Assembly (NCBI GenBank): GCA_025449115.1
Contig: JAHLKC010000022.1
Span: 186,001-250,000 of the forward strand
Reading direction: 5' to 3'
Source of the DNA: Chytridium lagenaria
Taxonomy: Eukaryota > Chytridiomycota > Chytridiomycetes > Chytridiales > Chytridiaceae
Length of the DNA: 64,000 nucleotides
Shown here: piece after piece, positions 8,618 through 50,488 of the stretch
Position numbering within the stretch: position 1 is the stretch's first letter
Layout of the letters: each line of letters starts with the position of its first letter
Notes under the pieces: generated by a model
The model's input: the letters and a program-made list of their open reading frames with translations, nothing else
Databases searched by the model: none
Told to the model about the DNA's origin: nothing
Position numbers and translations under genes: made by a program

Positions 8618-8963
8618 CTCTGGTCTGAGGATAACGTCGGCGGAGGAGGAGAGGTAGGATGGCAGTCGATTGCGCCGTCAAGTTGCTATTTTTGGTCGAA
8701 ACAAAACCCTTGTCAAAATGTCTTATACAATTGTCTGCTCTACCGGACAACGGACAGGTAATACCAAGAAGGACGCATTATGCGACGTTGTATTTCTCCC
8801 ACAAAACAAACAACAGAAACGTAGCGCCATCGTCCACACTCGGACGAAAACAAGAAGGTAAGAAACCATAGTTCAGAAAGAGGTTAAAAAACAAACGAAA
8901 CAAAGAAAAATAAGAAAACATTAAACCGACAGTCAATGTATTTCAAAAAAAATAACTCATCAA
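8618..8963. other. Intergenic between RabGAP and amidohydrolase A
   Basis: 346 bp holding the RabGAP 5' flank and the amidohydrolase 3' flank, both genes minus strand. Nothing else recognised. Confidence 0.55.
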
Positions 8964-11900
8964 TCAGTCATGCTGCGGCTTAACAACCACATCAATGCCA
9001 TCTCCAATGATTTGAATTCCCTTCCCAAATCCAAGCGGTCCAATTCCATTCAACCCCAAAAGACTAGCCCTCTTTCCCTCCTTAATAACACCCGCCCCTT
9101 CAACCCCAAATGCTTTCCCTACATTCCAAGTAACACTTCCCACGGCCGCATTCTCATCAACGCACCCTCAGAATCCTCCTTCGCCCATCCAGCCTCCCAC
9201 AGCAAATTCCTCCTAACACCATTCTCAGGTGAAGACAAAATCACCTTGACGCCTGCAGTAGTCAACATATCAATCGCAGAGGGCCCTTCCTTCCCAGGAA
9301 CGGCACCACCTAGTTTCCCAAAGCATAGGGACGCACCGAGCAGGAGAGAGAAGAACGACAACATTAAGTTCAGCCAACTCTTTAGCGACAACCCAGGCCC
9401 CGAAGCGCCGGCGATAATGAGACGAAGATCCGGAACAACTTCACGTTTGATGGCAAGGACTTTAGCGATATCGTTGGGGTCGTGAGCGGTGACGACGAGA
9501 GGTATTTTGCCGGTGGCCGCGTCACGGAAGGGACCTTTGGCGGTGGTATCGATAAGGAGGTTGCGGAGTTTGACGATTTGGCTAGAGACAGATGGGCTTG
9601 AAGCGGAAAGACCAAAGACGCCGAGATTCACGTGTAAAGCGACGACAGGCTTCAGGATAGCGTCGCTGTACACTAAAGACAAATATCCAATATTCAGTTT
9701 TAGTTATTCGAAAAAAGATGCAAAGACTCACGCTCAGCTCCAGTCCTAAATGCAGCGCTCAAGCCTTGACAAAACCATCAGTCGCGGGGACGGTGATGGA
9801 TGTGAGAACACCGCCACGGAACGCCTCGTTAAGAGCCTTGGAGTTTCCTCCAACACGAATACCGTCAACAGCTCGGACGTTACCAGCAATAGCTTCAGCC
9901 CAGAAGAAGCGCCATCGTTGGTCATGACCTCAGGAGGAATCTCAACAAGTCCAAGATCAAGGTTAGACCCGATAAGACCCTATAATCGAATTAAAAATGT
10001 GGCCTAAGGAAAGAACAAAAACGTACTGGAATAATGACACCCCCTTTCAAATCGTAAATGGTACCGGTTTCCTTGCACTTTCCGATGCAGGTGACGACAC
10101 CCTTTTCCACAACGACGCTACCCTTCTTCACGTCCCCATCGTCAACAAAAATCTTGGATACGTTAGTGATGGTGTACGAGGTTGGGTTTGCCGATGAAGT
10201 GGAGACAGTAGACATTGGAGCTACTGCAGATGAAGGAGCTGCGGGTTTCGCCTTGTTCAAGTCCTTGTTCCCAGCAGGGAGGAGGAACCCGTCAATAATA
10301 ACTTGAGGGGATGCGCACCAAGTTCAAGGGGATGACTAAAAGCGTACAAATCAGCTAAACGGAAAGGAAAAAAACGAGAGAAACCGAAAGGTTCGAAATA
10401 CTAGACATACCGATCCCAAACAAGGACATCGGCATCGTAACCAACGGCAAGTTTTCCGATTCTCCATCCAAGACCCATGCGTTCAGCAGGGATACTGGTG
10501 ACGGACGCAAAGGCTGCATCACGGTCTAAACCGTACTCGGCGGCCTTTTGTGCTTCGTAGATGAGATGTTGTGCGTTAAGGACGGGATGGTCGGATTTGT
10601 AGGCGACTTTGACGCCGGCATCGTGGAGGATCTCCCGGCTTTGACGACGCGCCATCTATAATTTTGTGAGTACTCTAAGCTCACCACAAGATGGTAACAA
10701 ATTTGTAAATGAACTTACAAGCTTCCTTCTTGTATAAAGAGTGATCAGCAAAGAGAGCGACAGAGATGTTTTCACGAGCGAGAAGAGGCGCAACAGGTGA
10801 GCCTCAAGAGCATGGTGGAATGCAGTAATCTCGAACCCAAACTCATGCTTATTCCTAATCATCATCTCAATATCATGAGTCTCATAGCAATGAATATTCA
10901 CGCGCACATCGCCACGAAGAAGAGCAACAAGCGAATCTTGTTCAAGAGGATCGGGAAACCTCTCGGTAACATATTGATGAGCAGCAGCACCAAACTTGGC
11001 ATCAGCAGCCTTCGCAGCAACACACCAATCTTCCTGCAACCTCAAAGTAGTCCTGGCCTCCTCAAATCGTTTTCTGTAAAGCCATCCACTCCCCATACGT
11101 GAAGTCGGTGTTCCACCCTGTCGTTTCGGATTCTCACCACACGCCATCTTCATCCATCGCCAAAGCTTTCCGTCGACGCTTTCGTCAACGTTCCGGTTTA
11201 TCGTCATGTCTTCCACTTCATAGCTGGTGGGCTTGATGAGTTTGATGGCTACGGCTTCACCGCCCATCAATGTGCCGGAACCAGGGAGGATGAGGGAGGT
11301 GGTGACACCGCCGGAAGCGACAATGTCGATGGCGTCGTCGAGAATGTTGATGCCGTCTTGTACACGGAGTTGGGGGTTCGTTTGGGAGGACATTTCGTTG
11401 CCGTCAGCGTTGCCCATCATGGTAGGGAAGGAGTAGGCACCAACGTGGCTGTGATGGATATTTCAATAAAGCGCGAGTTCCTTGTTGGCTTACCTGTGCA
11501 TGTCGACGATACCAGGAGTAACGTAACGTCCATCAGCGTTGATGATGGTCACATCGGTTTCATCGTAAACCTGTTCAACGCTCCAGACCTTGGAGGAGGC
11601 TTGAGCTGCCTTTATGACGTCGGACTTGGAAAGACCTTTTGCAATCTTGAGGACGAGACCATTGGCGAGAGCGACATCCACATGCTCAAATCTGCCGCCA
11701 ACACCGTTGAGGACAGTAGCGTCTTTGATGAGGATGGGGTTACCGGTGGTTGCAGCCGCGGTGTTGTTGACGAGGACAGAGTATCGGGGGTTACGTCTCT
11801 GGGCGACGTTGGCAGGGGGTCCACCTATGTATTAAAGAAGTAATGAGCGAATGCTAAAGACAACCATGGCACAACTCACCGGTCAAGAAGGCGGTAGGGT

Positions 11901-12215
11901 TTTGCTTGGTCTTTTGGATCTTTGCGCAAGAGCGTAGACCTTCGTCAAACACACTTGCGGAAAGCGCTCGGATCTCTGGCAACGGTTTCTCAAAGAGCTT
12001 TGAGATGAAAGCCTTATCAAACAACAATGCAACTACAAGGGTCACAAAGATACCCCCAAACAGCACCAGAGGACGCTTCAAGTCGTTCAATTGAAACTTG
12101 CCAGACTTTACAGAAGGTCATCCGTGTCCTCATCGTCTGCAGGTCTGTTTTGTAGGAACGGCTGCGACTCGGGGTCGTTGCGTGAGGAGGATGCACCGTT
12201 GCTACGCGATGCCAT
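8964..12215 (-). CDS. Membrane-anchored amidohydrolase-superfamily protein, copy A
   Basis: First of three paralogues (others at 29227 and 32834). Start at 12215 (MASRSNGASSS) with a short acidic cytosolic tail containing DPESQPFLQ, one transmembrane helix (VLFGGIFVTLVVALLF, about 12010-12065), then an extracytoplasmic metallo-dependent hydrolase domain. The metal-binding HxH is built across a splice junction: D-M-H-S-H-V-G (about 11500 and 11440). Other conserved blocks are GGVTTSLILPGSG, VNIHCYETHDIEMM, AFHHALEAH and YKSDHPVLNAQHLIYEA. Stop at 8964. Similar fungal proteins are often labelled 'carbohydrate esterase family 9/amidohydrolase'; the substrate is unknown. Copy A has at least four one-base frame breaks (about 12110, 10797, and two near 10630-10645), more than copies B and C, so it could be a decaying copy or carry assembly errors. 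Confidence 0.8.
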
Positions 12216-12762
12216 GCCGGGTGATGAAAGAAAACAAAGTTTGCGTGAAGGGAAGGGAAGACGAACGGGGTGGAAAGAAGGGTCGGTTGATCTTGTTTCG
12301 ATCCGCACACGAATTTTCGTGGGAAATGGCGCAGTGCCTCTGCTTGCTGAGTCAGAGGAGATAAAACAGCCGACGCGTTCAGTGACGAGACGCGATGGTT
12401 TGTTTTCAGTCTCGCGCGAGGTTCTGTCGTGGTGGGAAGAGGGTCGTCATCCCATGTTAATTCGGGAGGCATTTTGAGTGAAGATAAGAGCGTCCATGAG
12501 CTAGGCATGCGCAATTTTATACTTTTTTTCGTTGCGCCACCATCACGTCTATTCCAAAGAGCCCCACTGAAGGTTAAGTAATTAGATTGCGGAGAACGGC
12601 TTATGTCTACACAAGCACATGCATTAGAGACATTCCCGCTGCTTGAACGAACACCACCTGATTCTTTATCTGCAGGCCTGCGGTCGACCGACATGCCACC
12701 GTTTTACTTGATCCAAAAGCTGCGTTTTCGTCGTCAACAGCGTAGTTTACCGTGTTCAATCT
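12216..12762. other. Divergent intergenic region (amidohydrolase A / glycosyltransferase-like gene)
   Basis: 547 bp between divergently transcribed genes, so it should contain both promoters. No clear TATA element or repeat seen. Confidence 0.5.
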
Positions 12763-13884
12763 ATGCTTTGCGGCCTTAACCGCTCCATCATACTCATCGG
12801 TCTCTTGGTCTCCTTGTCTCTCGCCATCAGCACACTCCTCTTGCAAATCTTCCTTGTCGAACCTCTTCCACCCCTCACCCCTCCAGTTCATGCCACACGG
12901 AATCCGTATGCAAGACCAAGAATTGTGGCATCTGTGAGCTCGTTTGACCAAGAGTTGAGAATATCACAGAGACGGTGGAGTCCATGTACGGGCAGTCGTT
13001 GAGACCGGATTTGATGTATGTGCATGTTCCAGAGGAGGTGAAGCGTGTGAATTGGAAGTCTAGCGAGCTGCCGGAAGTGCTGAAGAGGTTGCATGTAAAG
13101 TATAAGGATTGGTTGACTATCATGCGGCCAGAGGATTATGGGCCAAGGTGGTTTTTTTGCTGTCATTTTTCACCGCGAGTATTTACTAATGTCATTGCTC
13201 TTTAGTACCAAATTGCTTGGAGCGTTGCTTCTCGAGCAAGATCCAGACACTATAATCATCACAGGTAATCAGGCTCACTTTTCTATTGATTTATCCTTGC
13301 GACAAGCGTTTCTTTCAATACCAAGCCTATATAGTGTCAATCTAATTTATTTCTTAATAGTGGATGACGATATGGCCTACCACCGCGACCTAGTGTACTC
13401 ACTTGTCCGTGTGTCCGAGCTCAAACCAACGCACGCCCCCTGCTTCAAATGCGAGATATGGAGTCCAGAACGGACGTGGAACTACATGGAAGGCGAAGGC
13501 GAGTGCCACGGATGGGGTGACGCGTGGACGGGGATAGCATACCGTGTTGGGTTCTTTGACAAGAGTATTTTTGACTATAGTAAAGTGCCAGACGGATGCA
13601 GGCTGTGAGTAGTAGAATCTATTCTGTAGAATATTATATAGCCATATAGTTAGTATGAGTTATGAGGAAATAACTAACTCTGTAAATACACGTCTTATAG
13701 GCATGACGACGTGTACATTAGCGGATGGCTCAAGGAGCACAGTGTTCGACCGTATAGATTTGACAGTGGGTATTTCCCAGTTGTCAGCCACAAGGACCAC
13801 AGCAACTTTAGCATCCACCGTGTGCCAGGAGGGTACGAGGACAAGCGCAATCCTTGCATTGAGCACTATGGCTTTTTCAAGTAG
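12763..13884 (+). CDS. Type II membrane glycosyltransferase-like protein
   Basis: Start at 12763 (MLCGLNRS) is followed at once by a hydrophobic helix (IILIGLLVSLSLAISTLLLQ), giving a short cytosolic tail and a lumenal domain as in Golgi glycosyltransferases. The lumenal part contains TIIIT followed, across an intron, by VDDDMAYHRDLV, a DxD-like metal/nucleotide-sugar signature, then conserved Cys/Trp-rich text (CFKCEIWSPERTWNY). Four introns with GT...AG borders (about 13147-13205, 13265-13360, 13604-13700). Ends HYGFFK, stop at 13884. One base appears missing near 12958 (QEL / NITETV). Family membership is inferred from topology and the DDD motif; the acceptor is unknown. Confidence 0.65.
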
Positions 13885-14218
13885 TAAATAAATAATAACT
13901 CAATAATAAATAATAAGTATGATGTACATATTTAGTATTAAATACTTGCATATAATATTTACTCTGCGTTATTTGTATTTATTAATTAATATCTTACATG
14001 AGTACATATTTATTTATTTAATTATTTATTCCTTTTGATTCCAGCAGCTACAGTGTGTGCAAAGCAGTGATGTGACCTACACTAATAGACTCCCTCATTA
14101 TTATTACCTATACACCCAACAAGCTCCTTATAGTTATATCAACGATGCCCAAGCATTCATTCATTCATTCATATTCATTTTGGAGTTGAAAGAAAAAAAA
14201 GTATATTTATTTATTTAT
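13885..14218. other. AT-rich intergenic stretch
   Basis: Mostly A/T with TAATAA/ATTTATT repeats and a (CATT)n run near 14155-14175. No gene supported. Confidence 0.6.
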
Positions 14219-14302
14219 CCCCCGCTCCCGGGGGAGCGGGGTTCCGGGAACATAATCATAGAAAGGGGTTACACGGAGGGTGGTACCAACCCCTTCAAAG
14301 GA
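14219..14302. repeat. GC-rich multi-hairpin cluster resembling a double-hairpin element
   Basis: Within AT-rich DNA: a perfect 10-bp-arm hairpin (CCCCGCTCCC at 14220-14229 with its complement at 14232-14241), directly followed by GTTCC-G-GGAAC (14241-14251), and a third 8-bp pairing (14263-14270 with 14288-14295). Two adjacent GC-rich hairpins are the layout of 'double-hairpin elements' described from Allomyces/chytrid mitochondrial DNA. A mitochondrial origin is only a possibility. Confidence 0.6.
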
Positions 14303-14463: not shown

Positions 14464-14505
14464 CCTCCAGTATGATTCTGAGACTTCCAGAAGTCATACT
14501 GGAGG
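14464..14505. repeat. Long hairpin upstream of the DDE-like transposase gene
   Basis: Arms CCTCCAGTATGA (14464-14475) and its exact complement (14494-14505), with a further inner pairing TTCTG/CAGAA. A second small hairpin CGAACC...GGTTCG lies just before it. It could be an element end, a MITE or a regulatory structure. Confidence 0.6.
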
Positions 14506-14600
14506 ATGCCCCAATTTTTTTTTCCATTAATCATTAATAAATTATTAATTCTGTCTTTCCATCGCACCGCATCATTGCTCCCATTCTGTACACATCAACA

Positions 14601-17600
14601 ATGGAGCTTACCTATACGTCTGTCCAGAGGATGCATAATCTTTTTGTCTCAAATCAAGCTAAAAAGGCCTGGAAAGATAAGACTTCGAAGATTATAAGCT
14701 GTCCGGACAAAAAGGATCAAAATCTGTTTACCAATCCGTCAGTGACGAGTTCCGCATGGAGTCATGACCGAGAGTTTACTAAGGTTTGCTTGTTTTGGAA
14801 TAAATACTCAATATACTGACCATAATGCAGAAAGAGCTGCAGACTTTGGCGGCTGCAGCATATGAAGCGCAGGTTATTGATAGAAAAGCTGGACATATGG
14901 TTTGGTATGATACGTCCATGCTACATTGACACTCATAATAGCCTTTTGCTCAAGTCTTTTCAAGCGGCTTCAATTCTCCGTCTTCTTTTAAAATTATCAT
15001 TATCGACCGCCTGCTTTTTAGGCGTGACGGAGGCGATCAGAAGCGCCGCTGCCGTGAAACCTGTTCGGCAACATTGAATGCAGATGGTTACGCAAGCAGG
15101 TATTTCTTTCTTTCTCCTAATGTATCAGCAATTAATTTAATTTATAAGGGGTTATGTGGATATTGATGGAGAAGGAATTATTTTATTCCGCAAACTCAAA
15201 TGCACTTATGGTCATAGCTGTGGGCTTCAGGATCAACTACATTCTTATAAAGGTGTTCCTTTACATTTGAGAAAAAAGTGCGCCTACACAACAACAGTCC
15301 AAACAATTATAACAAGTCTCTTGGTGGATAGTTCAGTCCCATCTGTGATGAAGCTTATAAAAGGTATTATTTAATTTATTGAACTATGTGTTCCCTTCCT
15401 TTCGATCTTAAACAATAATTTCTAGAAATAAAGGATACCACGGTTTTAGAGCGTTGGACTCGCGCTCTTCATATGTTATACACGGATGGTTTCGCAAACG
15501 AGTCTGACGAGAAGGCTTGTGGCAAGTTTTTATCTTCTCACTTTCTTGAGAACGATATTTCACGCGTCAGGTACTTTCCATAGCTTTATTATTATTTTTT
15601 TTTGATTCACCATTTTACTTACAGTATGGGCGAGGGTATAATTAAGGAAATTTTTATCGACTTCGTTAAAGAAAGATACGATCATATGATGATTACCATC
15701 AGCAAGGTTGAAGGTTAGGTGGACAATTTGGTTTGGTTGATAATGTTTGTACAGGCAAGCACCTTGCATTTGACGAAACTTTCAAAGTCAGCTCTCTGGG
15801 AACTGCTGAGTACAATACTCTCGCTGTAATCATGAATGAGTATCAAGAGATAATGAGTTTGGTATGTTTATTTGAAACTGTACTGAATATACATTTACCA
15901 ATTTAAAGAACTTTTTGGAGGGAAAGGCGCATAAGCACTGGGAAGTCGTTTTTGCTTCCTTGGCTCTTCGTTCACGCGGCAATTTCACTGTGGAAACGTT
16001 CCATTGTGACATGGAGTCCTATTCCAGTCTCGTTAACAAATATTTTCCCGAGTCGCGAGTTCTCCTTGACATTTTCCACCAGATTGAGCTTTTATTAAAA
16101 TTATGCACGGTAAACGATCCCGCACTCGAGACATTTCCTCGCATACTCGTTTCTCAAATATTTTACGGTGAGTTTTCCGTTTTATTTAAGCACTAAAACA
16201 GATTTGTTTATAAGAGCATAAAAAAGGCGCTGCCACAAGCAGTGTTCGAAAGAAAGAGGACATGGAAGTAAAGCTTGATTTAATTGTCGCCCGCCTCAAG
16301 GAATGCTGCACCTTTGTTGAGAAAGATATGGTCGAGGCTGTTGCGCGTCTCCGTGAACGAATAAGAAATGGGTGAGTTGCCGCGCGGCATATTTATTCTG
16401 ACAACTTCAAAAGATTCTTCAATGCTTCAAATGATACATCGGTTAAAGCAGACGGCACCTGGACTGTTGCGCGGGCATCTTCTAAGCTGGAGGGTTTTTT
16501 TAAACATCTTCGCTCAATTGTGCCAACTGGTGGACAATTAGGTTTGATGTTATTTACTCTAAGTGTGCTTACAAAGCTCATTTTATTGAAAGGAATTGAA
16601 ACCGCCAGCCTGAAAGGTTTGAAGTATGCAAGCACATGGAACCATCGTAGGGGATTGGAGCGACTTGACCCTTATTATATGTAAGTTATTCTATTGCACC
16701 TGCTATCTCTAATTCGTTTCTATTAGGTTGTGCGGCAACAGTGGAGATTATGCTCTTGTTGATGAGCTTCTTCGGCTTTGGGGTAGGATTGCGACACATT
16801 TTGCGGATCCCAAACAAAGCCTTTGGAACGGGGAATACCCTAAAGGCATGTGGTTTCCATTAATTATTGATGGCGACGCAAGCATCACACCCATCATTGA
16901 CTTCAAGGCAAAGCTTGAGCACATCCAAGCTCCGCTCGTTTGCAAGACAACAGATACGAATTGTGAGCTCATTATTCGGAAATGGGAAGGCCTAGAAGAA
17001 TCCTCATCTCTTTCAGCAATGCTTTCGCAGCCCCGCCCATCCCCTTCCATTCAAAAATCCATTCGCATGCCATCACAAGAAGCTTCTTTGTCTGCACCTT
17101 CACCCTCTTTGCGCTCCTCCTCATTACTTCATCAACCTCCCTCTTCCTTCCATCCCCCCACACCTTTGTTTTCACCGCTGACTCCATCAGCTTTCCAGCC
17201 CCCGGAATCCTCAACTTCAGCAGTCAAAACTGCTGGCTCGCAATCAAACACAGCAATAAATTCTTCGCAACCCTCCCCTTTAATAACAATCACTGCCTCC
17301 GCAACCCTTCATTCAAGCCAAGTCGTCCCTTCACTGCCTCCCGCAACCCTTCCCTCCAACAGCCAAGCCACTCTCTCGCTCTCTCCAGATCCCTCCTCCC
17401 GTCGAACGCAAGAATGGCGCGACAGCACGATTAGAAGATTTTCGTCGGGAGTTCGGAAGATACAGCGATACTGAAGCTTTTAAAAACGACTGAAAACTGC
17501 TTCGTTATTCAAATGAATTCCCCGGCATGGCAGGCTTTAAACAGTGGAGAGCCTACCTTTGTTGCTGAATCTCCTCCTCTATCCTCCCCCATTGCTTCCC

Positions 17601-19606
17601 CTCGAGTTTTGCCATTACCTATTCCTTTTCGAGTTTCTATGATAAATCCCCAATCCACACCTCCGGATTCCTCGCCCATAACCCCCCAAGCAGCACCCTC
17701 CTCAGCGCGACGCCCACCATCCCATCCTCTGTCCTACCGCGACAAGTTTCAATCAGCAAATTCATTTACTTCAGCGTCTGCATTTCACGACCTCTCGGAC
17801 ACAAGCTCACAAACAGACGAGAACGACACTGACAAGAGCGATACAATGGAAGTTGAAGAGGCGGACGAAAGTTTGAACTCATTTATTAGTTCCAACAACA
17901 AGAGGAAGAGATTGGAAGGTATGTAGTATCATTTTGTTAATTCTAACAGCATTTTAGAGCTTTATGATGAAGAAGGCCAACATTACCTTTTCAAAAAAAG
18001 GGAACCAAAAGGAAAAGGCCCAGGTAACCTCTAATTTAGCCACCATCTTTAATTAAAAAATTGTCTTCTATAGCTGAAGATTTCGATTTAACGGACGAAG
18101 AAGATTCTGTGGCGGTGGCTTTGGCATTACATAAAAGCAAGCATCATGAAGCGGAAGACGGTGTGGGCCCATCGAGAGTGGTATGTTTTTTTGTCAACAA
18201 AGAAAAGACGGTTAATCAGAAAACTTATGGATCTTCTCAGGTAAACCATCTACCTGATGGGCAGCCTCTCATGGATTTATCTGACGACGAATTTACCATG
18301 TATTCGATGGAAAGCAGTGAGTCGATGTTTTTGTTTCAGCTGTTCTAACACCAATCAAAGTAGATGAGCAAACCTTGATTTCACAAGAGTCAATTGCACA
18401 GCAAATCGAAAGAGAACTTCAGGGGAAGACGACGACGAAGCAAAAGATATTGGACTCTCAAGACATGGTTAAATCGACGTCAGACTCCAAAAATCGCGGT
18501 GCTGCAAACATGGACTCGTTAGAACGTGGAGGTACGATGACCGAGTCCCGTGATCAAGCAACGGAAAAGATAAAAAAGCATGACGACGTGGAAGACAAGG
18601 AGAGGGCTGGTACTGTTTTAAAATTTGCTGATAAGTGTTAGTTCCTTTTTTTTTTCAACAAGTTACCCATAATTTTTAAAACCTCCATTTGAGTTTATTT
18701 TGTCTAATCTGTTTTGTTGAAGCGAAAAAAATGGTGCAGACCAAATTGGAATTTTTTAGTAGACCTTCGGTCAATCCCGTCTCCAAACCAACGATGCCTA
18801 TTCCCTCGGGGACCTCGCCAACTCCATTTATGGTTACTTTGGAGGAACGGACTCTTTTCAAGGCTTTCCGGAATTCGCTTCAGCTATCCTCGAAGCACAG
18901 CAATTGGAAGAAAGTAGAACAAGAATGGGCTAAATTGATTGTACATCAGAAAGGTTCGTTTTTCAATTTGGTAATCCTAAATGTTATCAGGATTGCACGC
19001 TCGTTCCGCGATGAATCTCCAAAGGTTATGTATTGATGCTGAGGACAACTTCGTTCGGGAATATTTTGGCGCGAAAACAAGTGAGCGAGCGACGATGGAC
19101 CTGTCATCATGGGGACAGAATATCAAGGATCGAATAAGAGAGGTTGACTCAAACGCAACCCAGGATGATCGTAAGAGCTTAATTTTCAACCAATTATGTT
19201 CTTATTGATATGAATTCCCTTTTTTTTTTAAAAAAATATTCTTCTTATTTATTCGTGTAGGATCGGGTTTAAGCGGGAGGTTGATAAAAGAAGGGAAAAA
19301 ACACAGAAAGGAGAAGGGAGGCGTCCTTGACCAACGAGTAACGCTCTGCACTCGCTGCAATCGTCAGCGAAAAGGCTCTAAGGAGTACTTACCAGCTGGT
19401 CAGCTCATGCATCCGCGGGACCGTTGTGTTGATGGAGTTCGACCGCTTTCAAACGTCAAATTTCCTTTAACGATGGAAAAAATGCAGGAGTTGGAGATAA
19501 CAGACGGTCGTAATGAATTAGAGGATAAGAAAAAGGAATTCCAACGTGAAGCTGTTTTTTATCCGTTTAACGTGGCACTTGGCCTCCCCGCGAAGTTTCA
19601 GAAATA
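14601..19606 (+). CDS. Multi-exon RNase H-fold (DDE-like) transposase of the putative serine-recombinase element
   Basis: A long gene of a dozen or more exons split by short introns; start at 14601 (MELTYTSVQRM). After a Cys-rich N-terminal part (CTYGHSCGLQDQL, about 15200) comes a transposase-like core: GKHLAFDETFKV (first Asp, about 15765), NEYQEIMSL, FHCDMESYSSL and FPESRVLLDIFHQIE (second Asp, about 16070), then SSKLEGFFKHLRS (candidate Glu, about 16490). The order and spacing resemble MULE/ISL3-like transposases. A long Ser/Pro-rich low-complexity middle follows (about 17000-17930), then acidic exons and a C-terminal CTRCNRQRKG/MHPRDRC zinc-ribbon-like block (about 19350-19430). It ends at 19606. 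I cannot exclude that it is two genes divided in the Ser/Pro region. Catalytic assignments are by pattern only. Confidence 0.6.
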
Positions 19607-19698
19607 ATAAAATTCGTATGCATTTATAACATCTTTTATTATAATTTTTAATGTAAAAGTGCACATATGTTTTGATGATCAAATATCGTTTATTCAGA

Positions 19699-21035
19699 CT
19701 AACGAGTGAGACGCGTAACAATATCATTTATAAGCTCCTCCTCTCGGTCCAAACCCAACTGCTGTAGAATATAGCTTTTAACATTTCTGTAGAGACGAGT
19801 GGCTTCGTCTGTATAATAAATTAAAGATAAATATATAAAGACACTCAACGTTGAAAAAAAATTGGAGGGGAAGACCTTACTTTTATTATTTCCTGCTTGC
19901 GTACCTATTTCAAGTATAACAGCAGCATGTCGTTGACAGCAATTAAACCGAAACGCGATATATCGAAGACAGTTATTGAAATGAAGAATAAAATATGTTA
20001 GTAAAGGAAAAATATCGCTGCTAGGAGCTATGAATACGCGCAATATTTACCTGTTTTGCTACGAAAGGTTTTATACTTCCCTTGGCTAACCAAAGATCGT
20101 AATAAAGTTGATGCTTTCAACCACTTCTTTCCGGACGACAAATAAGTTTGAACCATCTCTGCTGATCCATTTAACGCAACGTCGATTTCACCAGCATGTG
20201 GGACCAGCTTTAACCCTCCTTTGTCCCGAATTCTCTCCTTCAAGTCAGTCGAAATGTAAGACACCGCAGTCGTTCCATCCGCCACTTCTGCTGAGAAAAC
20301 GGTCCCATACGGTGAGTAAAGAGATTGACCCACATGATCCCTTCTCCGTGATCGAGAGGAATCCTTGGTCCTCTTGATGGCCGTCATTCTTTCAACTTCT
20401 GCAAAGAAGCATTTCATTAATAAATTCGTCCGTGCGGCTATTTCTTCCTGGTCTTTCGAAAGAGGGCCGAACATTAAGTTGTCTTCTGTGGCACTGGCGA
20501 AGGTTTTGTTGTTTTCCGTGATCTCGTTGATGACGGAAAGAGTTTGCAAAGTGCTGCGAGACAAGCGGTCTATTCGGTAAACTACTAATCCAGCAATTGA
20601 CGGATCGCTGATCACCTTTTGAATAGCAGCATCAAGTCCTTCCCTCCCAACATCCATCCCAGACGCCAGATCTCGGAAATTCTGGTCGTGTATTTGGAAT
20701 CCTCGTATGCGAGCCCACCGCTCAATAATGTCACGTTGATCTTCCATAGACCTATTAACGTCCCCATCTGTTACTGACTTTCGCGTATATAAAACGAAAA
20801 TTGGTGCCTGAGACTGCTGTACCTCTTTGCCACCTTTCATCATATTGACGAGATCTGTTGCAGCACTACGAATAGTGGCAACTTGGCTTGCCGGAACGTT
20901 ATCTGTGTATACAGGGTTGGGGCTTGGTGAAAGGGGCATCAACGAGGAAAGGTAGTGCTGGAAACTGACATCCATCAAGGTGTCAAGAGAAACACCTTGC
21001 GCCCACTGCGGCACTACTGTTGAGGTAGCTTGCAT
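19699..21035 (-). CDS. Serine recombinase (resolvase/invertase catalytic domain)
   Basis: Site-specific recombinase with a serine nucleophile, normally a bacterial or phage enzyme. Start at 21035 (MQATSTVV). About 78 residues precede the catalytic domain: FVLYTRKS places the candidate nucleophile at Ser87; then SMEDQRDIIERWA, GLVVYRIDRLSRSTLQ (Asp156-Arg157, Arg160) and the long-helix block FFAEVERMTAIKRTKD (about 211-225). The C-terminal ~200 residues look helical and show no zinc ribbon I recognise. Two introns, near 20010-20050 and 19810-19905, mean it is adapted to a eukaryotic nucleus rather than contamination. It converges on the transposase gene. All active-site blocks appear intact and unbroken. 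Confidence 0.85.
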
Positions 21036-21127
21036 GATGAGGTTTGAAGATGTGTCGCAGCTGATTTACGCGCTCTGGTGGGACATGCAACGAGCGAACA
21101 ATGGGGATGTATTCTTGTAATAATAAC

Positions 21128-21157
21128 CTCGCGCGCAAGGGATCCCTTGCGCGCGAG
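21128..21157. repeat. Perfect 30-bp palindrome, candidate recombination site
   Basis: Left half CTCGCGCGCAAGGGA (21128-21142), right half its exact complement (21143-21157), centred on GGGATCCC. A third copy of the TTGCGC core lies at 21161-21168. It sits 93 bp upstream of the serine recombinase start, where bacterial resolvase genes carry their res site. The function is an inference. Confidence 0.8.
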
Positions 21158-21270
21158 CTTTTGCGCAAGTCAGTACTTGAGCAGATCCTGCATCATTGTT
21201 TGTTTCTACCTTCATAAACTAAAAATCGTGACTCCTATTGTCTGGCTCCCCTCATCCGCTCTTATTTTTT

Positions 21271-21640: not shown

Positions 21641-22305
21641 TTCCCTACATAAGCCCTGTCTTCAATATCCCCGAACAATGATTTTTAGTTCTCACATGAT
21701 GTACTAGCTGTTTAGGAAACCTAGGCTTTATTTTGGACATATTGCTATATGACTCTATCGGAATTCGAAAGGTGAAACGTCCTTTTTCATACAATCTGCT
21801 TCTGACTTTATAGGCTAATCAATCTTTCTATTAGTGCGTGAATCCTTTAAACATTTCCCATGTCGCGCGATGTTATCTTCGAGTTATGTTGAGGTATTCC
21901 TTTCCCTTCATCTATATTTTAAAGTATCGTCAATTTTACTATGCTTCGTTTAAAGTTTCCATCATCCCGAGAACAGACAGAAACGACGAACGAGACTTTT
22001 CAAAGATGGAAGGTAGACGTCTCCATTGATATAGTCATTATTTCCATTTTACCTATGTTGTGCATCCGTTTTCTGTCAATAGTTTACTCGTTTTAGTTTT
22101 ATTCCACTTCTGCTTAATCGAACATTTGCGGTTGCAGCAAATCATCGTCAAGGAAAAAACGGCTTGGTCCTCAATGTGTTCCCAAAAAATCACCTCAGAT
22201 CACGTGTCTGGATCAGATTCTAATAAGTAAAATTTTTAATTGGAGTTTCAGTAGGTTAATACCATTAACTAATATTTCCATCGATAACAAATTTTTGGTT
22301 TTTTC
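21641..22305. other. Non-coding stretch left of the Tc1-like element
   Basis: AT-rich, with only short unsupported reading frames. A TA dinucleotide at 22306-22307 begins the target duplication of the next element. Confidence 0.5.
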
Positions 22306-22307
22306 TA

Positions 22308-22340
22308 CAGTGTGGGACATCAAAAGAATTATAAAAATTT
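22308..22340 (+). repeat. Left terminal inverted repeat of the Tc1-like element
   Basis: 33 bp, exact reverse complement of 27631-27663; starts CAGTG directly after the TA duplication. Similarity stops after the AAATTT that ends the repeat. Confidence 0.95.
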
Positions 22341-22379
22341 CTATTAAGTAAAAAATAAAGTATTATAGTTGCTACTCCT

Positions 22380-22472
22380 CTACCAGTCAGGCGGCACACC
22401 GGCATTTCTCATCGTTAAACGATAGATTTCGTCGATAGCTTTCGAATAACGTTGAGTTTTTTGTCCTAGCAT
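22380..22472 (-). CDS. Mini reading frame (30 aa) just inside the left end; possible terminal exon
   Basis: ATG at 22472, TAG at 22380. The product has a protein-like amphipathic pattern (QKTQRYSKAIDEIYRLTM, then GVPPDW and stop). It begins 40 bp inside the left terminal repeat. It may be the last exon of a small helper gene or chance; no upstream exon was established. Confidence 0.3.
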   Translation of the reverse strand: MLGQKTQRYSKAIDEIYRLTMRNAGVPPDW

Positions 22473-22522
22473 TTCTCCTTCTTAAGTTATAGGCCTTCAA
22501 AGATTTACTAATTGTAATTAGT

Positions 22523-22578
22523 GGGCCCGAAAAAATCTGCACTCCCGCAATTATACCCAAAAATCGATATAGGTATCA
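22523..22578 (+). repeat. Subterminal direct repeat, left copy
   Basis: GGGCCCG, then AAAAATCTGCACT, then ATCGATATAGGTAT. The same three blocks occur in the same order and orientation at 27483-27570. Confidence 0.7.
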
Positions 22579-22752
22579 TTCGACTGAGATGGCCTCGGTG
22601 GGTCTCTTTATGACGTTCATGTTGATTGGTGTATTAGTGGATAACGGCGAAAGAGTCGACAGGAAAAGGTCTTACAGCAAATTTGTTGGGTGATCCAAAA
22701 CAAACAAATAAACAAATCCATTATTTTATTATTAAATCTGTCCGTCAAAACC

Positions 22753-25700
22753 ATGCCTCGTCCCAAGAAGCAGCAGAAGAAGACAGTGAAAGCTACTGCA
22801 GAAAGGCAGCAAGGGAATATACACATTGCATCAGAGCGCGACGAGTCTGACGACGAGCACGATGCATCGGAGAGCGGATGTGATAGTTTATATCGTGACT
22901 CTCACAGTCTTGACCAACTCGACAACGACAACAACAGCAGCAATTACGAAGTTGAAAGCCATGATGACAATAGCTACGATGACTATGAAAGCTTTGACGA
23001 CAACAGCAGCGAAGATACTGACGCGGAGGATCCCTGCATCGACGACTTTCCAGATGATTTATACGCATTCCTGATGTCGACAGTCTCAAAGAAACGCAAG
23101 GAGGTTCATGTGTTGTTGAAGGCGGCCCTCGAAAGCAGACATAGACAGAAAACTCTAGAGGAATTTGGCGTTGATGCTCATGTTTCTACCGGGGCAAAAA
23201 GGGATTACACCGGAGGATCAAGACGTACGAAGTACAACAGACTGGCGCAAGCACGACAGAAGGAAATTCTTGATGCAAAAGCCCGACATGAAACTGGCGG
23301 CGGGCTACTTAGGTTCTTTTCTGCTCGACAACAGCCAATATCAAAAAGGAAGCTTTCCCCGTCACCAAAATCCTCTAGAGACGCGAAACCTTCCGCATCG
23401 ACATCATCAGCTGAATTTAATATTTCTTCCTCATTGCCATCACTTTCCGGACAACCGTTCACAAAGAGAGTTCCTGCTAGCATTTTATCGGCGGTGACCG
23501 TCTTGCCGGAGGAAGAAACCGTTGATGTTGACGCATTGGAATACACGGCCAGCTTGGAGCAGACCTCTCAAGAAAGTAGTTTTGCGGTCAGAACCGTTGA
23601 AGGTACTAGCTGGTATTCATCCAGCGCAGTTAATATTCTTGCCCACGAAATGGTGCGAGCACGAACGGACTGCTTGCTACTTGACTCAAATTGTATTTTG
23701 GGAAAGCCCAACCGAGCAAATACACAATCACGTCAAATTCGTAACGATATCACCCGCTTTATTTTTCCATTTTGTTTAAACTCACATTGGAGGGTATTCT
23801 CGGGTCTGCGCTGCGGTGAAAGGGGAAGGTGGACAACTCACCTTTGGGATTCAATGGAAAGTAGCCCTCTTTCCCAGGAAATCTGCGAACGTGGGTTTTT
23901 GATATGCCAAGAATGGGTAAATTACCGTTTGGGTGTGGACGAAATGTTTGAGCCCTACGTTACCGTATACGTTCCTCGTCAACAGGATGGAAATAGCTGT
24001 GGTGCCTTCTGCATTGAAAGCATGCTATTATTTTTGGAAGGTGGTCTTCAATGGCCTGTTGATGCGTCAGTGCCTCAAAATGCTAGAGCTTTGAGGCAGA
24101 GGGACAAAACCATCTTACTCTCGTGCATTTCAGCGGACAGCAGAGATTCAAGTGTTCCCAATGTAAGTTATATTAAAGTTGAATTAGAGCATAACATACA
24201 TTTAGCTTACGTTTGCAAGCATTTTTTCGACGAAAGCGGCTTCCAACAAGGATGAGGATACAGCGGAAGAAAGCCTCGCGTTTATGACGTCAAGGTCGAC
24301 GAAATCTGTGTTAATCAAAGAAGAGACTATAGCGGAAGAAGACCCCGCTTCGAAAACGACAAATGGATTTGATAATAATGAAAGGCCAAGCAAGCTTACT
24401 GTGTTGGAGCACTATACCGAGCTCTTTTACCATGTGCGAGCGGATTTGGAACTCGCAAAATCTCTACGAATACGTGATTACAAGAATGAGACTAAGCTTT
24501 CAGTGATTAAAACATTTCTCACGCTAGTCACCCAGCAAGGCCATGATATTTCCAAAGCAAAACGGTTAGTGAAGGTCCGATTAATACATCTAACACTGTT
24601 TGCATTAGATTAGCCGCCTCTTTGAGTTATCCGGATCTAAACGAGAGATCCGCTGTCAGTACTGTTGGCCGTCTCGTGAAACATTTTGGAAGATACCGCA
24701 CCGTCCTACCTGATCTAAGAGGAAAACACTCAACCCGTATCAGTGTCTTTCAAGTCCACCCAAACCTGGCCAACGATATTAAGAACTGGATTGACTCAAG
24801 ATATCAGTGTCGATTTATTGATGTCATTCAATACTGCACTGCATTATTTCAAGGATTTAGAGTGCGGCCACCATCGGTTAAGACCGTTCGAAGGTTTTTA
24901 AAGCGATCAGGCTATAGTTCAAAGACAACAAACAAGGGACTTTATAAAGATGGGCACAATCGTGAGGATGTTGTGACATACCGTCAAACATCCTTCTTAC
25001 CGGCACTTCGAAAACTCCGTTCTAGAGCTGTCACTTATGAGTCGGTGGATGAAACACTAGATGATTTATCCATACGAAAAGTACCGCTGCCGCCGATCAG
25101 GCCTATCATCACCTATTCACAAGATGAATGTGTGTGTCAGTCTGAAGACTATAAGTTGAAGTATTGGACAAGAGATTCAGATTACGTTGCAGTTGCTCGA
25201 AAACCTCTCGCGACCTCAATTATGATCTCTGCGTTTATAAATGAAGATATCGGAATCCTTCAGTGTTCACAAGAACAAGCCGACGCCCATTACCGTGCAA
25301 GTAATCGGTTAATCGATAATCTTACTTCAACTGTTTACCTTAATATTGGCAAAAAGAAGGATGGCTACTTTAACAACGACATGTTTTGCGAACAAATATC
25401 ACGCGCTATTGATATTCATGAGGCTGTGTATGGATACGGAGAAGAATCGCCTCAAGCCCTATTCATTCTGGACAACAGTCGCGTTCACGACAGCAGGTCT
25501 GATGATGCCGTGCACATCTCCAAGCTCAACTGGAATGGAGGAAAGCCAGGGACAGAGATGCGGAACAGCTTTTTCATCCACGCACAGGACAGAGCTAAGC
25601 CTAACGCTGCAGAGCTCCGCAGAGAACAGAATTTTACGAAAGAAAACAAAGCTTTGAAAGGGATTAAAGAGATTTTGGAAGAACGTGGACTCTACATCCC

Positions 25701-26673
25701 CTCCCTATCTTTTAAATGTGGCGGCACATGTAAGTAAAATCTTAAAGCAAGCTAGCGTAACTGTGTTTAGACTGTGAAACCGCGCGTAAAGGTGGTGCTT
25801 CAACCACTTGCTGTGGTTACCGTATGCTAAGCTCCGAATCCGATTTCGTGGAGCTTGATGCAAAGGTAGTGAGCTTGATTCAAAATCGCGGACACCTTGT
25901 TTTGTTTCTTCCGAAATTCCACCCAGAGTTGGCTCCGATTGAGTTGTTGTGGGGTCAATTGAAGCCAGATATCAAGTCAAAGGCACCAGAGGTCAACAAC
26001 GCGGAAGCCTTTATGGATTTAGTTGACGAATCAATGAAAGAGGTACCGATTGTAAACATCAGGAGGTATGGAACATTTATTATAACGATGCCAACAACCG
26101 TTAGATGCTTCCGTCATGTCAAAAAATGGATAGATTCATATGAGCATGGCCTAACGCTCGACCAAACAATCTACATCATAAACAAGTATCAGTCTCACCG
26201 CAGGATCCCGGAGACTGCTATCCAACAAGTCAAAAGCGGGTTGAAAATCGAACCGTCTAAATCAACAAATCGAGGGAATACGGACAACAAAGGGCTCACT
26301 GCTTCAGGACTTTTAAATGCTTTGCATAACATTAATGAGACTCAAGAAGAGGTAGCTTTTCCTATTGATGACTTTTACTCACCCAATTAAAAAGGAAATA
26401 TTCTTGTCTGCAAAGTTGAGTATTTCCGTGGCCTCAAAGGACGAAATTATGGAGAGCCGAAAACCGCACGGGCGCGTGAAGCGAAAAAGAGCATCTAGGA
26501 AGTCAGTAACAGATGTCAAGGAACCCGCTAAGGATGAGGAAGTTGTTGGGATTAACGAGCCGCCGCTTAAGACTGAACGCACAAAACAGAAGCGGAAAAA
26601 ATACACGTGCAGTGTGCCGAACTGCCCAAACCCCACCACTCATAACCGACGCAGATGCCAATTTAAAACCTAA
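22753..26673 (+). CDS. Ulp1-type cysteine protease fused to Tc1/IS630-like DDE transposase
   Basis: Transposase gene of the element. Exon 1 (22753-24162; MPRPKKQQ, in-frame ATG also at 22690) encodes an acidic N-terminus and a C48/Ulp1 protease: NSHWRVF (His345), HLWDSMES (Asp366), RQQDGNSCGAFC (Gln410, Cys416), with the canonical Gln-to-Cys distance of six. A 43-nt intron (24163-24205) then joins in frame to a domain with DDE blocks: YSQDECVCQ, FILDNSRVHD and FLPKFHPELAPIELLWGQLK. Further introns are 24565-24608, 25730-25770 and 26066-26104; each restores frame. Without further splicing it stops at 26390. An alternative intron (26352-26415, GTAGCT...CAAAG) would add a basic tail with a C-x4-C-x5-H-x4-C knuckle ending at 26673. 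A two-gene reading (protease and transposase separate) is possible but would need a promoter inside coding sequence. Confidence 0.8.
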
Positions 26674-26814
26674 CGTGAACAATTCGCTTTAAGATCTCAA
26701 TACATCATCTTTATATAGCCATATTTAGTACATATTATAAGGTATCATTGCCCGTTGTCTCCATCAACAGTTTATGAACTGTAATTGAGTAAGAAATCGA
26801 AAAAAGGTTCAAAC

Positions 26815-27422
26815 TTAACGTTCTGCAATTGCATCGACACCTTGGTAAGCCAGCTCTAAGGGTGTCTCATTGAGAACGCGTACATCCGCGGATCCATATC
26901 GAAGATACTAGCCACAAATGTCACAAGAATGAAAGAAAACATAACATAACATACCGAAGACCTGCGAACGGCTTTACTCTCATGAGTTGGCCGCATCATA
27001 GAAACAACACCAATCTTGCTGTTGTAGTCACATGCAACTCGGTGAACCTCTGCTAGCATCCCAACAACGCATTGAGGTTCCATGTCCACCAAAACTCGAA
27101 CTTTGACGCAAGAGAAGTATCCTTTCTTTTTGTTATCGTAGTATGTTGAGTTCTCGAAAACTACACAGCTACCAAGAGTAACCTGAGCGCCGCATCCTTC
27201 TGGGTGTTCACCGCATGTTCGGCCGGCATTGGTTTGGTTGAGACCGACTATGAGAACCTCGGTCGAATCACAGATACTGGGTAATGCCTCCCTCTTCAGC
27301 ATGAGTCCGAATTGTCTTAAGAAAAAATTCAAATCCCCGAAATTATTGAAGTCCTCAAAAGACGATTTTCTTTCTGTGATTACGAGGTCTCTTTTCAATG
27401 AAAACAAACAATAAATTACCAT
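26815..27422 (-). CDS. Accessory protein of the Tc1-like element, unknown function
   Basis: Convergent with the transposase gene, inside the element. Start at 27422 (MVIYCLFSLKRD). A 47-nt intron (26908-26954, GTATGT...GCTAG) joins the main exon to a C-terminus ending VDAIAER, stop at 26815. The product is about 185 residues, with a Cys/Gly turn block (RTCGEHPEGCGAQVTLGSC) followed by alternating hydrophobic strands, suggesting a small beta-rich domain. I recognise a general likeness to accessory proteins of fungal Ulp1-bearing transposons but not a named family. Confidence 0.6.
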
Positions 27423-27482
27423 TTGAAAGCTCTTGCTGAGCGGATTCGAACGGTATAAAAAAAAATATACCTCATTAATTAA

Positions 27483-27570
27483 GGGCCCGGTCCAAAAATC
27501 TGCACTTTTATTAATTAAAAAATATTAAGTGTAGATATGCCAATTCTCTATCGATAGGTATTAATAACTA
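27483..27570 (+). repeat. Subterminal direct repeat, right copy
   Basis: GGGCCCGGTCCAAAAATCTG, then CACT, then further on ATCGATAGGTAT. It matches 22523-22578 in direct rather than inverted orientation. Confidence 0.7.
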
Positions 27571-27630
27571 TAGGTATGCGGAAACACTTTATTAGAGCGA
27601 AAACGCTCTCAAAAAAAAGGGTCAAAAAAT

Positions 27631-27663
27631 AAATTTTTATAATTCTTTTGATGTCCCACACTG
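27631..27663 (-). repeat. Right terminal inverted repeat of the Tc1-like element
   Basis: 33 bp, exact reverse complement of 22308-22340, followed by TA at 27664-27665. Confidence 0.95.
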
Positions 27664-27741
27664 TAGATGATTAAAATGCTTGTCCAACGCTCGGAACATA
27701 TTAAAAATACATTAACCGCAACGAAAAATTCTGAAATTTTC

Positions 27742-29226: not shown

Positions 29227-32200
29227 ATGGCCTCACAGCGTGGTCCATCCACCTCTGCAGCAGATCCCGAATCTCAGCCATTCATCGACAACACCATCGA
29301 CCAAGATGAGCCCTCCCCCGATAACGATTTTCTCCAAAAGGCTGGCCGCATCGAACTCTCAGAGTTAAAGCGTCCAGCCATCTTCTTTGGGAGCATCTTT
29401 GCTGTGATTGTTGCTGCGTTGCTGTTTGATAAGGCCTTTATTGCTGGATTCTTCAAGGCACCGTTACCTGATGTAAGGGCTTTATCGGAGGATGTGTTTG
29501 CAGAGGGGATGAACGCTTGTGGGAGGATTCAAAGGGTGAAAGAACTTAATCCTTCAGCTTACTTTACTGGTGAGAAATCTCTCCATCCCTCCTCAAACAT
29601 GCTAACACCATAATCAAGGTGGCCCTCCTGCCAACCTCGCGCAAAGACGCAACCCTCGCTACCCTGTTCTTGTCAACAACACAAAAGCAGTCTCTTCCGG
29701 AAACCCCATCCTTATCAAAGACGCAACAGTGCTCGACGGCATCGGGGGGAGGTTTGAGAATGTGGATGTGGCGTTAGCCAATGGATTGATTGTTCAAATC
29801 GGAAAGGATCTTTCAACATTGGATGTCATCAAGGCGGCGCAGAGGGGTGCAGATGCTTGGAATGTGAAGATGAGCTTCGCCGTAGACGATGTTTTGGTCA
29901 TAAAGGCTGATGGACGTTATGTTACGCCTGGCATCGTTGACATGCATAGGTAAGGTCCTTGACGATGAATGGGAAGGTTGACACTTTAAATAGTCATGTT
30001 GGTGCGGATTCGTTCCCAACAACTCGCGGAACGTCCGACGTGAACGAAATGTCATCGCAAACCAACCCCCAGAACCGTATCATAGACAGTATCAACATTC
30101 TCGATGAGGGTATCGATGTTGTTGCATCCGGCGGTGTCACGACTTCCCTCGTTCTCCCTGGTTCCGGTACCTTGATAGGTGGAGAAGCCGTCGCCATAAA
30201 GCTCATCAAACCTGCCAACTACGAAGTCCAAGATATGACAGTCAACCGTAACGTTGACGAAACCATTGACGGGAAGATTTGGCGTTGGATGAAGATGGCG
30301 TGTGGGGAGAACCCGAAACATCGGAATAACCCTTCATCGCGTATGGGAAGTGGATGGCTTTACCGCAAACGATTCGAAGAGGCTAGGACTACTTTACGAG
30401 CACAGGATGATTGGTGTGTTGCTGCAAAGGTTGCTGAGGCGAGGTTTGGGGGGGATGCGCATCAGTATATTACGGAAAGGTTTCCTGATCCTATTGTACA
30501 GGATTCTTTGGTGGGGTTGTTGAGGGGGGATGTGCGCGTTAATATTCATTGCTATGAGACACATGATATTGAAATGATGATTAGGAATAAGCATGAATTT
30601 GGGTTTCAGATTGGAGCGTTTCATCATGCTCTTGAGGCGCATCTTGTTGCTCCTCTTCTTGCTCGTGAAAATATATCTGTCGCTCTCTTTGCCGATCACT
30701 CTCTATACAAGAAAGAAGCCTGTGAGTATAACTTTTTAATCATCTCTGTTTCTGAATCTAATATGGTTACTGATATTTCAATATAAGACGGTGCGTCCGT
30801 TAAGGCTGGCAAAATTCTTCACGAAGCTGGTGTCAAAGTCGCTTACAAATCCGACCACCCCGTCCTCAACGCCCAACACCTCATCTTTGAAGCCCAAAAA
30901 GCCGCTCATTACGGTTTAGACCCTGATGCCGCCTTTGCGTCCGTCACGAGCGTGCCTGCTGAACGTCTTGGTCTCGGATGGCGTATCGGAACTCTTGCCG
31001 TAGGATACGATGCGGATGTGCTTGTATGGGATCGGTAAGTCCTTACTACTCTTTCCGTCGTTTTGACAATGTCGCTAGCCATCCTCTTGAACTCGGTGCG
31101 GCGCCCCTTAAAGTTATTATTGATGGATTCCTCATTCAAGCTGGAAATAGAAAAATGAGGGCTAAGCCTGAAGCTGTGGCACCTTCAACGCCGCCGATGA
31201 CTTTTGAGACGAACGTGGATGTCTTGGATCGTCAACCTTATACCATTACAAACATCTCAAAGGTGTTTTCGGATGATGGGGAGATTAAAAAAAGGGAGCA
31301 TTACTGTTGAGAAGGGCGTTGTTACTTGTATTGGAAACTGTAGAGAAAAAGGGACGCTGTACAATTTGAACGGAGGTGTGGTTATTCCTGTGAGTAGGAT
31401 GTGACCTCTTTATATATGTCTAGCGGGTTTCTAATGGCTTCCTTGCTTATATAGGGGCTGGTTGGTGCCAACCTTGATCTTGGACTTACCGAGATTCCTC
31501 CTGAAAGCACAACGAACGATGGAGAATCCTCCAGCGCTGAAGCTATCGCAGGAAACGTTCGTGCTGTTGACGGAATCCGTGTTGGTGGAAATTCGAAGAC
31601 GTTGAATGAGGCTTTCCGTGGTGGTGTGCTGACTTCTATCAGTGTCCCTTCTACTGATGGATTTGTGAAGGGTCTAAGCGCTGCGTTTAGAACCGGTGCA
31701 GAAGTATGCTCTTTTATCTCTTCATGGCATCAGATATTGATTGTTTGCTTGATATCTTTTTCAGCTTACAGCACTGCAATTTTGAAATCCGTCGTCGCGT
31801 TACATGTCAGCATTGGACAATCTGGTGTCTCTACTGCAACCCCGTCTGGCTCCAGCCAAATCGCTAAACTTCGGTCCCTTTTCACTCATAACGCCACCGG
31901 TCCCTTCCACGAGGCATTTACTGGGAAACTACCACTCGTCGTCAATGCCGAAGACCCGAACGATATTTCCAAGATCCTCGCTATGAAGCGCGAACTCGTC
32001 CCAGATCTCCGCCTTATCATTGCCGGTGCATCTGGTGCTTGGGTTGTCGCAAACGAACTCGCCGAACTCAACGTCCCTGTTCTCTTGACGCCGGCGCGTT
32101 GCGTTCCTAGCCAATGGGAGACGCGTTGGTGTCGTATCCCTGCCACGCGTCCCAGCGCTGTTGAGTTGTTGATCAAAGCTGGGGTGAAGGTTCTTGTTTC

Positions 32201-32464
32201 GCAGAATGAAAGCGGGGTTAAACGGAATTTGTTGTGGGAGGCTGGATGGGTTTATGCGGATAGTGATGAGGTTAGTGAGAATGATGCTGTAGGGAGGTTA
32301 CGTGGAATGTGGCAAAGGCGTTTGGGGTGGAGGGTGTTGGGGTTGTGAGGGAAGGAAAGAGGGCGAGTTTTGTGGGGTTGAATGGAGGACCACTTGGGTT
32401 TGGGAGGAATGTACAGATTATTGGAGATGGTGTGGATGTTGTGGTGAGGCCTGAGCAAGATTAG
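29227..32464 (+). CDS. Membrane-anchored amidohydrolase-superfamily protein, copy B
   Basis: Second paralogue. Start at 29227 (MASQRGPS); acidic tail with DPESQPFID, then a transmembrane helix (IFFGSIFAVIVAALLF) and the hydrolase domain. HxH is again formed over an intron (DMH / SHVG, 29949 and 29993). Other blocks match copies A and C: GGVTTSLVLPGSG, VNIHCYETHDIEMM, AFHHALEAHLVAPLLAREN, YKSDHPVLNAQHLIFEAQ and DADVLVWDR. About seven introns, positions shared with the other copies. Two one-base breaks: an A7 run at 31287-31293 (one A too many) and near 32295 (one base short), the latter moving the conserved C-terminus (GLNGGPLGFGRN...) out of frame before the stop at 32464. Likely type II, facing lumen or outside. 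Substrate unknown. Confidence 0.82.
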
Positions 32465-32833
32465 ATTTGTTTTATTTGTTGTTGAACTCTGGTTCTCTTT
32501 CTTTTTGTTTTTTCTATATTTGACCTCCGTTCGAGTTTCGACGTGTTTGTGATGTTGTTTGAGTTTGAGATAGACGAACTGCGTCCTGTCCCAATTTTTC
32601 AAAATGCATTGTAAAAGATGGAGTAACAACACCGTCATCATTTGCTTTTTCGTGGGCAAGCCCAAGGGACGGCGCCATACTCATTGTTTCTTCGGAAGTA
32701 CGGCGCAAGGGTATCGCTCCGGTCCCTTACAAATCCACGATCGAGTTCCCTACTTTTGCAACACTCGGCCACAAATGTCGAATTAGGAATCGCGTTTTTT
32801 CGTTGCCACTTCTCACCAACTTGACCAGCAATA
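32465..32833. other. Intergenic between amidohydrolases B and C
   Basis: 369 bp between tandem genes: 3' flank of B and promoter of C. Nothing else seen. Confidence 0.5.
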
Positions 32834-50217: not shown

Positions 50218-50226
50218 TTTTATTCT

Positions 50227-50298: not shown

Positions 50299-50307
50299 TT
50301 ACTTTCT

Positions 50308-50380: not shown

Positions 50381-50386
50381 TTTCCT

Positions 50387-50480: not shown

Positions 50481-50488
50481 AATTCAGT

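Follow-up and report, generated by a model that had tools for sequence, protein, structure and literature searches.

Candidate two-enzyme transposons pairing a serine recombinase with a likely DDE transposase in Chytridium lagenaria

A serine recombinase (SR) gene and a DDE-like gene lie side by side in the window, the whole 64,000-nucleotide stretch analysed here (C22:186001-250000; contigs are written as C plus number) from the genome of Chytridium lagenaria (41.9 Mb, 356 contigs). In our reading, to which we assign a probability of about 0.52, this locus belongs to a set of several related DNA transposons with two enzymes each, the DDE-like protein carrying out transposition and the SR acting at its own site. 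The observations beneath it are the linkage of the two genes at all SR loci found, a motif that occurs nowhere else in the genome, elements in several copies whose DDE-side end is conserved, and mosaic halves; from these we infer DDE catalysis, SR binding at a palindrome and a resolution reaction.

Six SR loci were found with the Resolvase profile and protein searches (the window, C18, C32, C135, C66 and C15). The profile detected five of these, and the decayed C15 copy was found by protein similarity only. A DDE-like gene adjoins the SR at all six, which rules out chance neighbourhood, and the same searches found no solo SR in the genome. A preliminary description of the window had reported two convergent, intron-containing genes about 90 bp apart at their 3' ends; both were found, with a measured gap of 91 bp. 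It had also allowed that homologues might never be linked elsewhere or that the SR might be a lone domesticated or recently transferred gene, and these possibilities are refuted by the adjacency at 6/6 loci and by the presence of three SR lineages in multi-copy elements, respectively. Bacterial contamination is not favoured, as introns are present and the loci are on six contigs.

The three lineages have SRs that are 40-62% identical. Type 1 comprises C18, C32 and C135 and is about 8 kb long without a nested insertion carried by C18 and C135. The C135 copy is truncated, and C18 holds two head-to-tail copies that abut, the first of which is truncated where the contig begins. Type 2 comprises C66 and C15. 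Type 3 is the window element, and decayed fragments of its DDE gene are present on C8, where no SR was found. The two genes are in tandem in types 1 and 2 and convergent in the window. The nested insertion in the C18 copies is 1.65 kb (L032/L033, C18 about 12171-13819). C32 lacks it, and the similarity of the C135 copy stops exactly at its edge.

The strongest evidence comes from a palindrome beside the SR gene.

21125..21160, no strand assigned: palindrome with 18-nt arms, 94% complementary, centred on CAAGGGATCCCTTG (21136-21149); proposed recombinase crossover site

The exact pattern CAAGGGNNCCCTTG, with the core CAAGGG-NN-CCCTTG, occurs six times in 41.9 Mb, each time upstream of one SR gene, and the reversed-pattern control does not occur in the genome. 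The independent count is three lineages (three copies are near-identical, and another two belong to a single type). The distance from palindrome to SR start is 83 bp in C18, 80 bp in C32, 83 bp in C135, 101 bp in the window, 112 bp in C66 and about 109 bp in C15. Its arms reach 12 bp in C18, 14 bp in the window and 8 bp in C66, around the central dinucleotides AC, AT and AG, respectively. No non-coding DNA around the SR aligns between the window and C18 or C66 by blastn at E<=1e-5. This genome-unique motif suggests that the SR and the palindrome work together, and with its variable 2-bp centre and single occurrence per element it looks like a serine recombinase crossover ('res') site. The palindrome could instead be a promoter element or operator of the SR gene, serving auto-repression while the SR acts elsewhere or on other sites, and a location 80-112 bp ahead of the start codon in 6/6 copies would suit such a role. 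Exact arms around a free 2-bp centre are, however, the geometry of serine recombinase sites, and one site may serve both roles, as Tn3 res does; we consider the operator explanation unlikely. The limits proposed earlier for this locus fared unequally: the right edge, 21157, falls at the palindrome and later proved meaningful, whereas the left edge is near a palindrome at about 14464 that has no copy elsewhere.

The SR was described earlier as intact, with Ser87 at its active site, and this was borne out.

19699..21035, minus strand: serine recombinase gene (P0001 match, Pfam Resolvase, active-site residues, catalytic-domain fold)
About 21035-20051, 19904-19881 and 19808-19699, minus strand: the three SR exons (from P0001; exon limits by eye)
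20777-20775, minus strand: codon of the catalytic Ser87 (conserved active site)

The open reading frame at 20028-21035 (minus strand) matches Pfam Resolvase (E=6.9e-19). The NR protein P0001 of C. lagenaria (372 aa, BC829DRAFT_387223) is identical to the window SR and extends through two short introns to 19699, and a second C. lagenaria NR protein, P0002, lies at the C18 homologue. Residues Y83, R85, S87, Q100, D156, R157, S159 and R160 are invariant in 17 aligned recombinases. In the predicted structure the catalytic-domain fold matches serine integrases and resolvases, and the C-terminus is modelled with low confidence. The catalytic domain begins at residue 30 in the C18 protein and residue 81 in the window protein, and is followed by about 140-150 aa.

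The companion gene likely encodes a DDE transposase, the reading that sequence evidence favours over the earlier proviso that the neighbour might lack a DDE fold.

14601..19607, plus strand: DDE-like transposase gene, 18-exon computed splice model (ISL3/MULE similarity, resemblance to the companion genes of other copies)
15772-15774, 16008-16010 and 16490-16492, plus strand: codons of the proposed acidic residues D, D and E (by eye from the alignment)
19330..19440 (approximate limits), plus strand: C-terminal Cys motif CTRCNRQRKG..HPRDRCVDG (by inspection; resembles CKRCGKVQKGHGKYACSDG in C18 and CKRCGVQQKGHPKFNCSDG in C66)

The 18-exon model contains no internal stop codons. The window gene matches Pfam ISL3 (E=3.3e-4) and MULE (E=0.029), both under the Pfam cut-offs, and NCBIfam ISL3 (E=4.2e-5), far under the cut-off of that model. 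The C32 companion matches DUF6729 over the cut-off (2.2e-12) and MULE under the curated cut-off (E=0.011). The C66 companion matches DUF6729 under the cut-off (4.6e-5) and Transposase_mut under the curated cut-off (0.0023 for the core alone, 0.018 for a longer construct). Of the two profile checks proposed in the preliminary description, the Resolvase assignment of the SR stood, and the ISL3/MULE matches of its neighbour stayed sub-threshold. When the hand-spliced window protein was compared with the C32- and C66-type companions, 0/500 shuffles reached the score (z 5.8 and 7.3), and the alignment with C66 takes in the Cys region at the N-terminus as well as the two proposed Asp motifs. The C-terminal Cys motif is present in all three element types; the C18 and C66 versions match at E=2e-6, and the resemblance of the window version is by inspection alone. 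Against PDB sequences, the DDE genes had no match under E 0.2 (two Crk-like chains). DUF6729 was also matched at L065 (C15 98803) and on C14, C57, C60 and C98, where no SR was found. One such locus was inspected over 3 kb, where neither DDE nor SR matched at E under 0.1, and the name DUF6729 was not found in the open-access literature searched.

The element ends were compared in the multi-copy types. The motif AGGAAGACGTAGTACAAA is at the DDE-side end in both, and the genome contains four exact copies of it, every one at the end of an element (two in C18, one each in C32 and C66); C15 carries it with 3 mismatches in a 19-base form. The SR-side end of C18, C32 and C135 is GGCGAAAATTTG. At this end of C18, 775 bp contain six GCAGAC/GTCTGC words, where about 0.4 are expected, and none were found in the C66 or window DNA searched. 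C32 is the sole copy with both ends and clean flanks (C18 being a tandem), and it carries a candidate 8-bp target duplication, GAAAAAAT (a run of 9); duplications of 8 bp or more were seen in 4 of about 3650 random position pairs (about 0.1%). In C66, CATTTTTC is repeated at 82136 and 82214, a tentative candidate, and no target duplication could be assigned in C66 or C15. The alignment of copies with their flanks that had been called for gave a conserved DDE-side end and a candidate duplication in C32, and no terminal inverted repeats.

The ends bear on an alternative in which mobility depends mainly on the SR, as an integrase or transposase, with the DDE-like gene as an accessory or DNA-binding partner and with movement as a circle that leaves no target duplication. 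Asymmetric ends lacking terminal inverted repeats (TIRs), tandem copies that abut on C18 without a clear spacer, and a catalytic domain resembling large serine integrases are all consistent with this. The palindrome, however, is internal, beside the SR gene and once per element rather than at the ends; the candidate duplication in C32 is of the kind that DDE enzymes leave; and the ratio of nonsynonymous to synonymous divergence between the C18 and C32 DDE genes is about 0.20 (0.237/1.211, 737 codons). An SR-driven element seems unlikely to us.

Comparison between copies revealed mosaic halves. The C18 and C32 SR genes are identical across 308 codons. Starting at the SR-side end, the two elements match at 98-100% up to and including the SR gene, except that C32 carries an insertion of about 130 bp; identity drops near the DDE 3' end and is then mostly 70-86%. 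Similarly, blastn of C66 against C15 gave 87.5% across 1950 aligned columns of the SR half versus 70.2% across 2580 in the DDE part, or 84-99% versus mostly 52-81% by blocks; codon counts for this pair are unreliable due to frameshifts and indels and were not used. Both boundaries are at or near the exon encoding the Cys motif. The simplest reading of these alignments is that SR halves have been exchanged between elements, and since these boundaries are some 0.25-0.6 kb away from the palindrome, ordinary homologous recombination or conversion would be the simpler cause. The same exon contains a 79-bp inversion, 92% identical, between C66 79971-80047 (L038) and C15 256964-257042 (L040), which is bounded by CAAGAC/GTCTTG in C15. 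It was considered as an SR product, and a template-switch mutation explains it equally well.

The identity contrasts in both pairs, along with the inverted SR in the window, could also mean that the SR and DDE genes come from separate elements nested together, the SR half being an independent mobile unit. This was already disfavoured by the DDE-like gene beside every SR and the lack of any solo SR found, and the C-terminal Cys motif of the DDE protein is at or inside the shared block. In addition, the two genes diverge in parallel, with SR identities of 61.5% and 40% where the hand-spliced DDE identities are 39% and 21%. We regard nested separate elements as very unlikely.

In the two-enzyme mechanism that we propose, the DDE transposase, which is Mutator/ISL3-like and bears a Cys (zinc-like) motif near its C-terminus, would cut and join DNA during transposition, and a dedicated SR would work at the CAAGGG-NN-CCCTTG palindrome just upstream of its own gene. 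Because there is one site per element, the SR would act on two directly repeated element copies, either a C18-like tandem or a cointegrate that replicative transposition has produced, and recombination between the repeats would separate the copies, as TnpR/res does for Tn3. DDE transposition with SR resolution fits these elements because they combine two chemistries, one SR-side site, a direct tandem and a constrained DDE gene. A further step, that they form a new eukaryotic transposon class with replicative DDE transposition and resolution by its own SR at a dedicated palindrome, a Tn3-like cycle built from unrelated components within a nuclear genome, is a tentative proposal that we place somewhat short of even odds. 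Eukaryotic DDE transposons are not known to need a resolvase. If the proposal is true, this would be the first case known to us of two-step, Tn3-like transposition in the nucleus, some eukaryotic DDE elements would be predicted to transpose replicatively, and a serine recombinase that is adapted to eukaryotes and uses a short palindrome as its site would be of interest for genome engineering.

Several results weigh against the two-enzyme transposon. No TIRs were found, and the ends of C18B and C32 share only short A-rich subterminal matches. One tandem (C18) was seen, and no circle or cointegrate. The window SR is reversed, together with its palindrome, relative to the other types, and the distance of the mosaic boundaries from the palindrome does not point to the SR. 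Near matches of the looser pattern TCAAGGGNNCCCTTGA are common, with 195 places at up to 2 mismatches versus 53 in the control, which leaves the exact core alone as informative; likewise, AGGAAGACGTAGTACAAA with up to 2 mismatches is found at 5 places, no more than its reversed control, and only its exact matches count. The DDE assignment is built on sub-threshold profile matches. With computed gene models, 2/500 shuffles reached the DDE comparison score (z 4.3) and the alignment ends before the Asp motifs, and hhalign of the window DDE protein against the other two, from tiny profiles, gave E=0.037 and a probability of 1.4%. Finally, 5/7 DUF6729 matches in the genome are at places where no SR was found.

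Tn3-family elements encode a DDE transposase and a serine resolvase, with the site beside the resolvase gene, long TIRs and a 5-bp target duplication. The chytrid elements likewise pair a likely DDE-type transposase with an SR and a candidate site beside its gene, and to this extent the Tn3-like pairing put forward in the preliminary description recurs across loci. They are nevertheless not Tn3 members: the transposase is ISL3/Mutator-like by weak matches, no TIRs were found, the SR catalytic domain is nearer to large serine integrases, the genes are nuclear and intron-bearing, and resolution is inferred. As to the length of the target duplication, C32 suggests 8 bp and C18 is a tandem. When the proteins of the window, C32 and C66 were scanned with Pfam, the Tn3-type transposase model had no match; the hits were ISL3, MULE, Transposase_mut, DUF6729 and chance matches (zf-BED, Trypan_PARP).

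Target duplications of 8-11 bp are typical of the MULE superfamily, and the 8-bp candidate in C32 would be a point of likeness to it; weak profile similarity to MULE and ISL3/IS256 transposases over the proposed D-D region is another. The chytrid elements differ in having no TIRs found, extra Cys motifs (with a DUF6729-like N-terminus in C32 and C66) and a linked SR. Large serine recombinases (TP901-1, Bxb1, phiC31, CcrB and XisF) are the best or among the best matches to the SR catalytic domain in both sequence and fold; the chytrid C-terminus is shorter, however, and Pfam detected neither PF07508 nor PF13408 in the chytrid SR. As in the IS607-type elements of eukaryotes and giant viruses, a serine recombinase is present in a eukaryotic genome. 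The eukaryotic serine recombinases in passages of PMC5718144, PMC3627910 and PMC2715888 are IS607-type, and in the latter two the DNA-binding domain of IS607 TnpA precedes the catalytic domain and the partner is TnpB/Fanzor. In the chytrid SR the catalytic domain comes first, the partner is DDE-like and scans of the partner genes contained no TnpB domain; domain order and partner rule out IS607 membership. The earlier remark that no described eukaryotic element with this pair was known agrees with our search, which found none in titles and abstract beginnings of the open-access literature (a set without subscription papers, preprints or Repbase).

Beyond C. lagenaria, one full-length SR relative was found, the metagenomic P0003, whose alignment covers 59% of the query at 36% identity (E=4.1e-53), followed by 15 recombinases at E 8.1e-7 or weaker; one of the SR searches scored only the 8000 best candidates. 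The DDE protein search returned two C. lagenaria proteins. Since the protein search needs shared exact words, a lack of relatives says little. Among viral contigs the SR had a single weak match (L064) and the DDE protein had none, prokaryote genome contigs and phages gave no matches, and a PADLOC scan of P0001 was empty.

When the flanks of the window element were compared with the genome, no second copy of either end was found. To its left, a short stretch (14196-14245) recurs at three places, and its right flank passes into an unrelated TIR element. This separate element, at about 22304-27667, has 37-bp inverted repeats and contains a reading frame that by eye looks like Tc1/mariner, along with a Ulp1-like open reading frame at 22690-24255 (C48 E=0.1). 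Relatives of about 1.15 kb with the same repeat are on C25 and C95 (97-98% over about 300 bp). Elsewhere in the window, tRNA genes are packed into 2.1 kb at 50146-52276 in two opposed blocks, 13 by Rfam and 12 by ARAGORN. Three repeats of about 3 kb, at 8942-12176, 29330-32486 and 32867-36078, are 68-71% alike, with one inverted relative to the other two, and may be a duplicated gene family or an old element.

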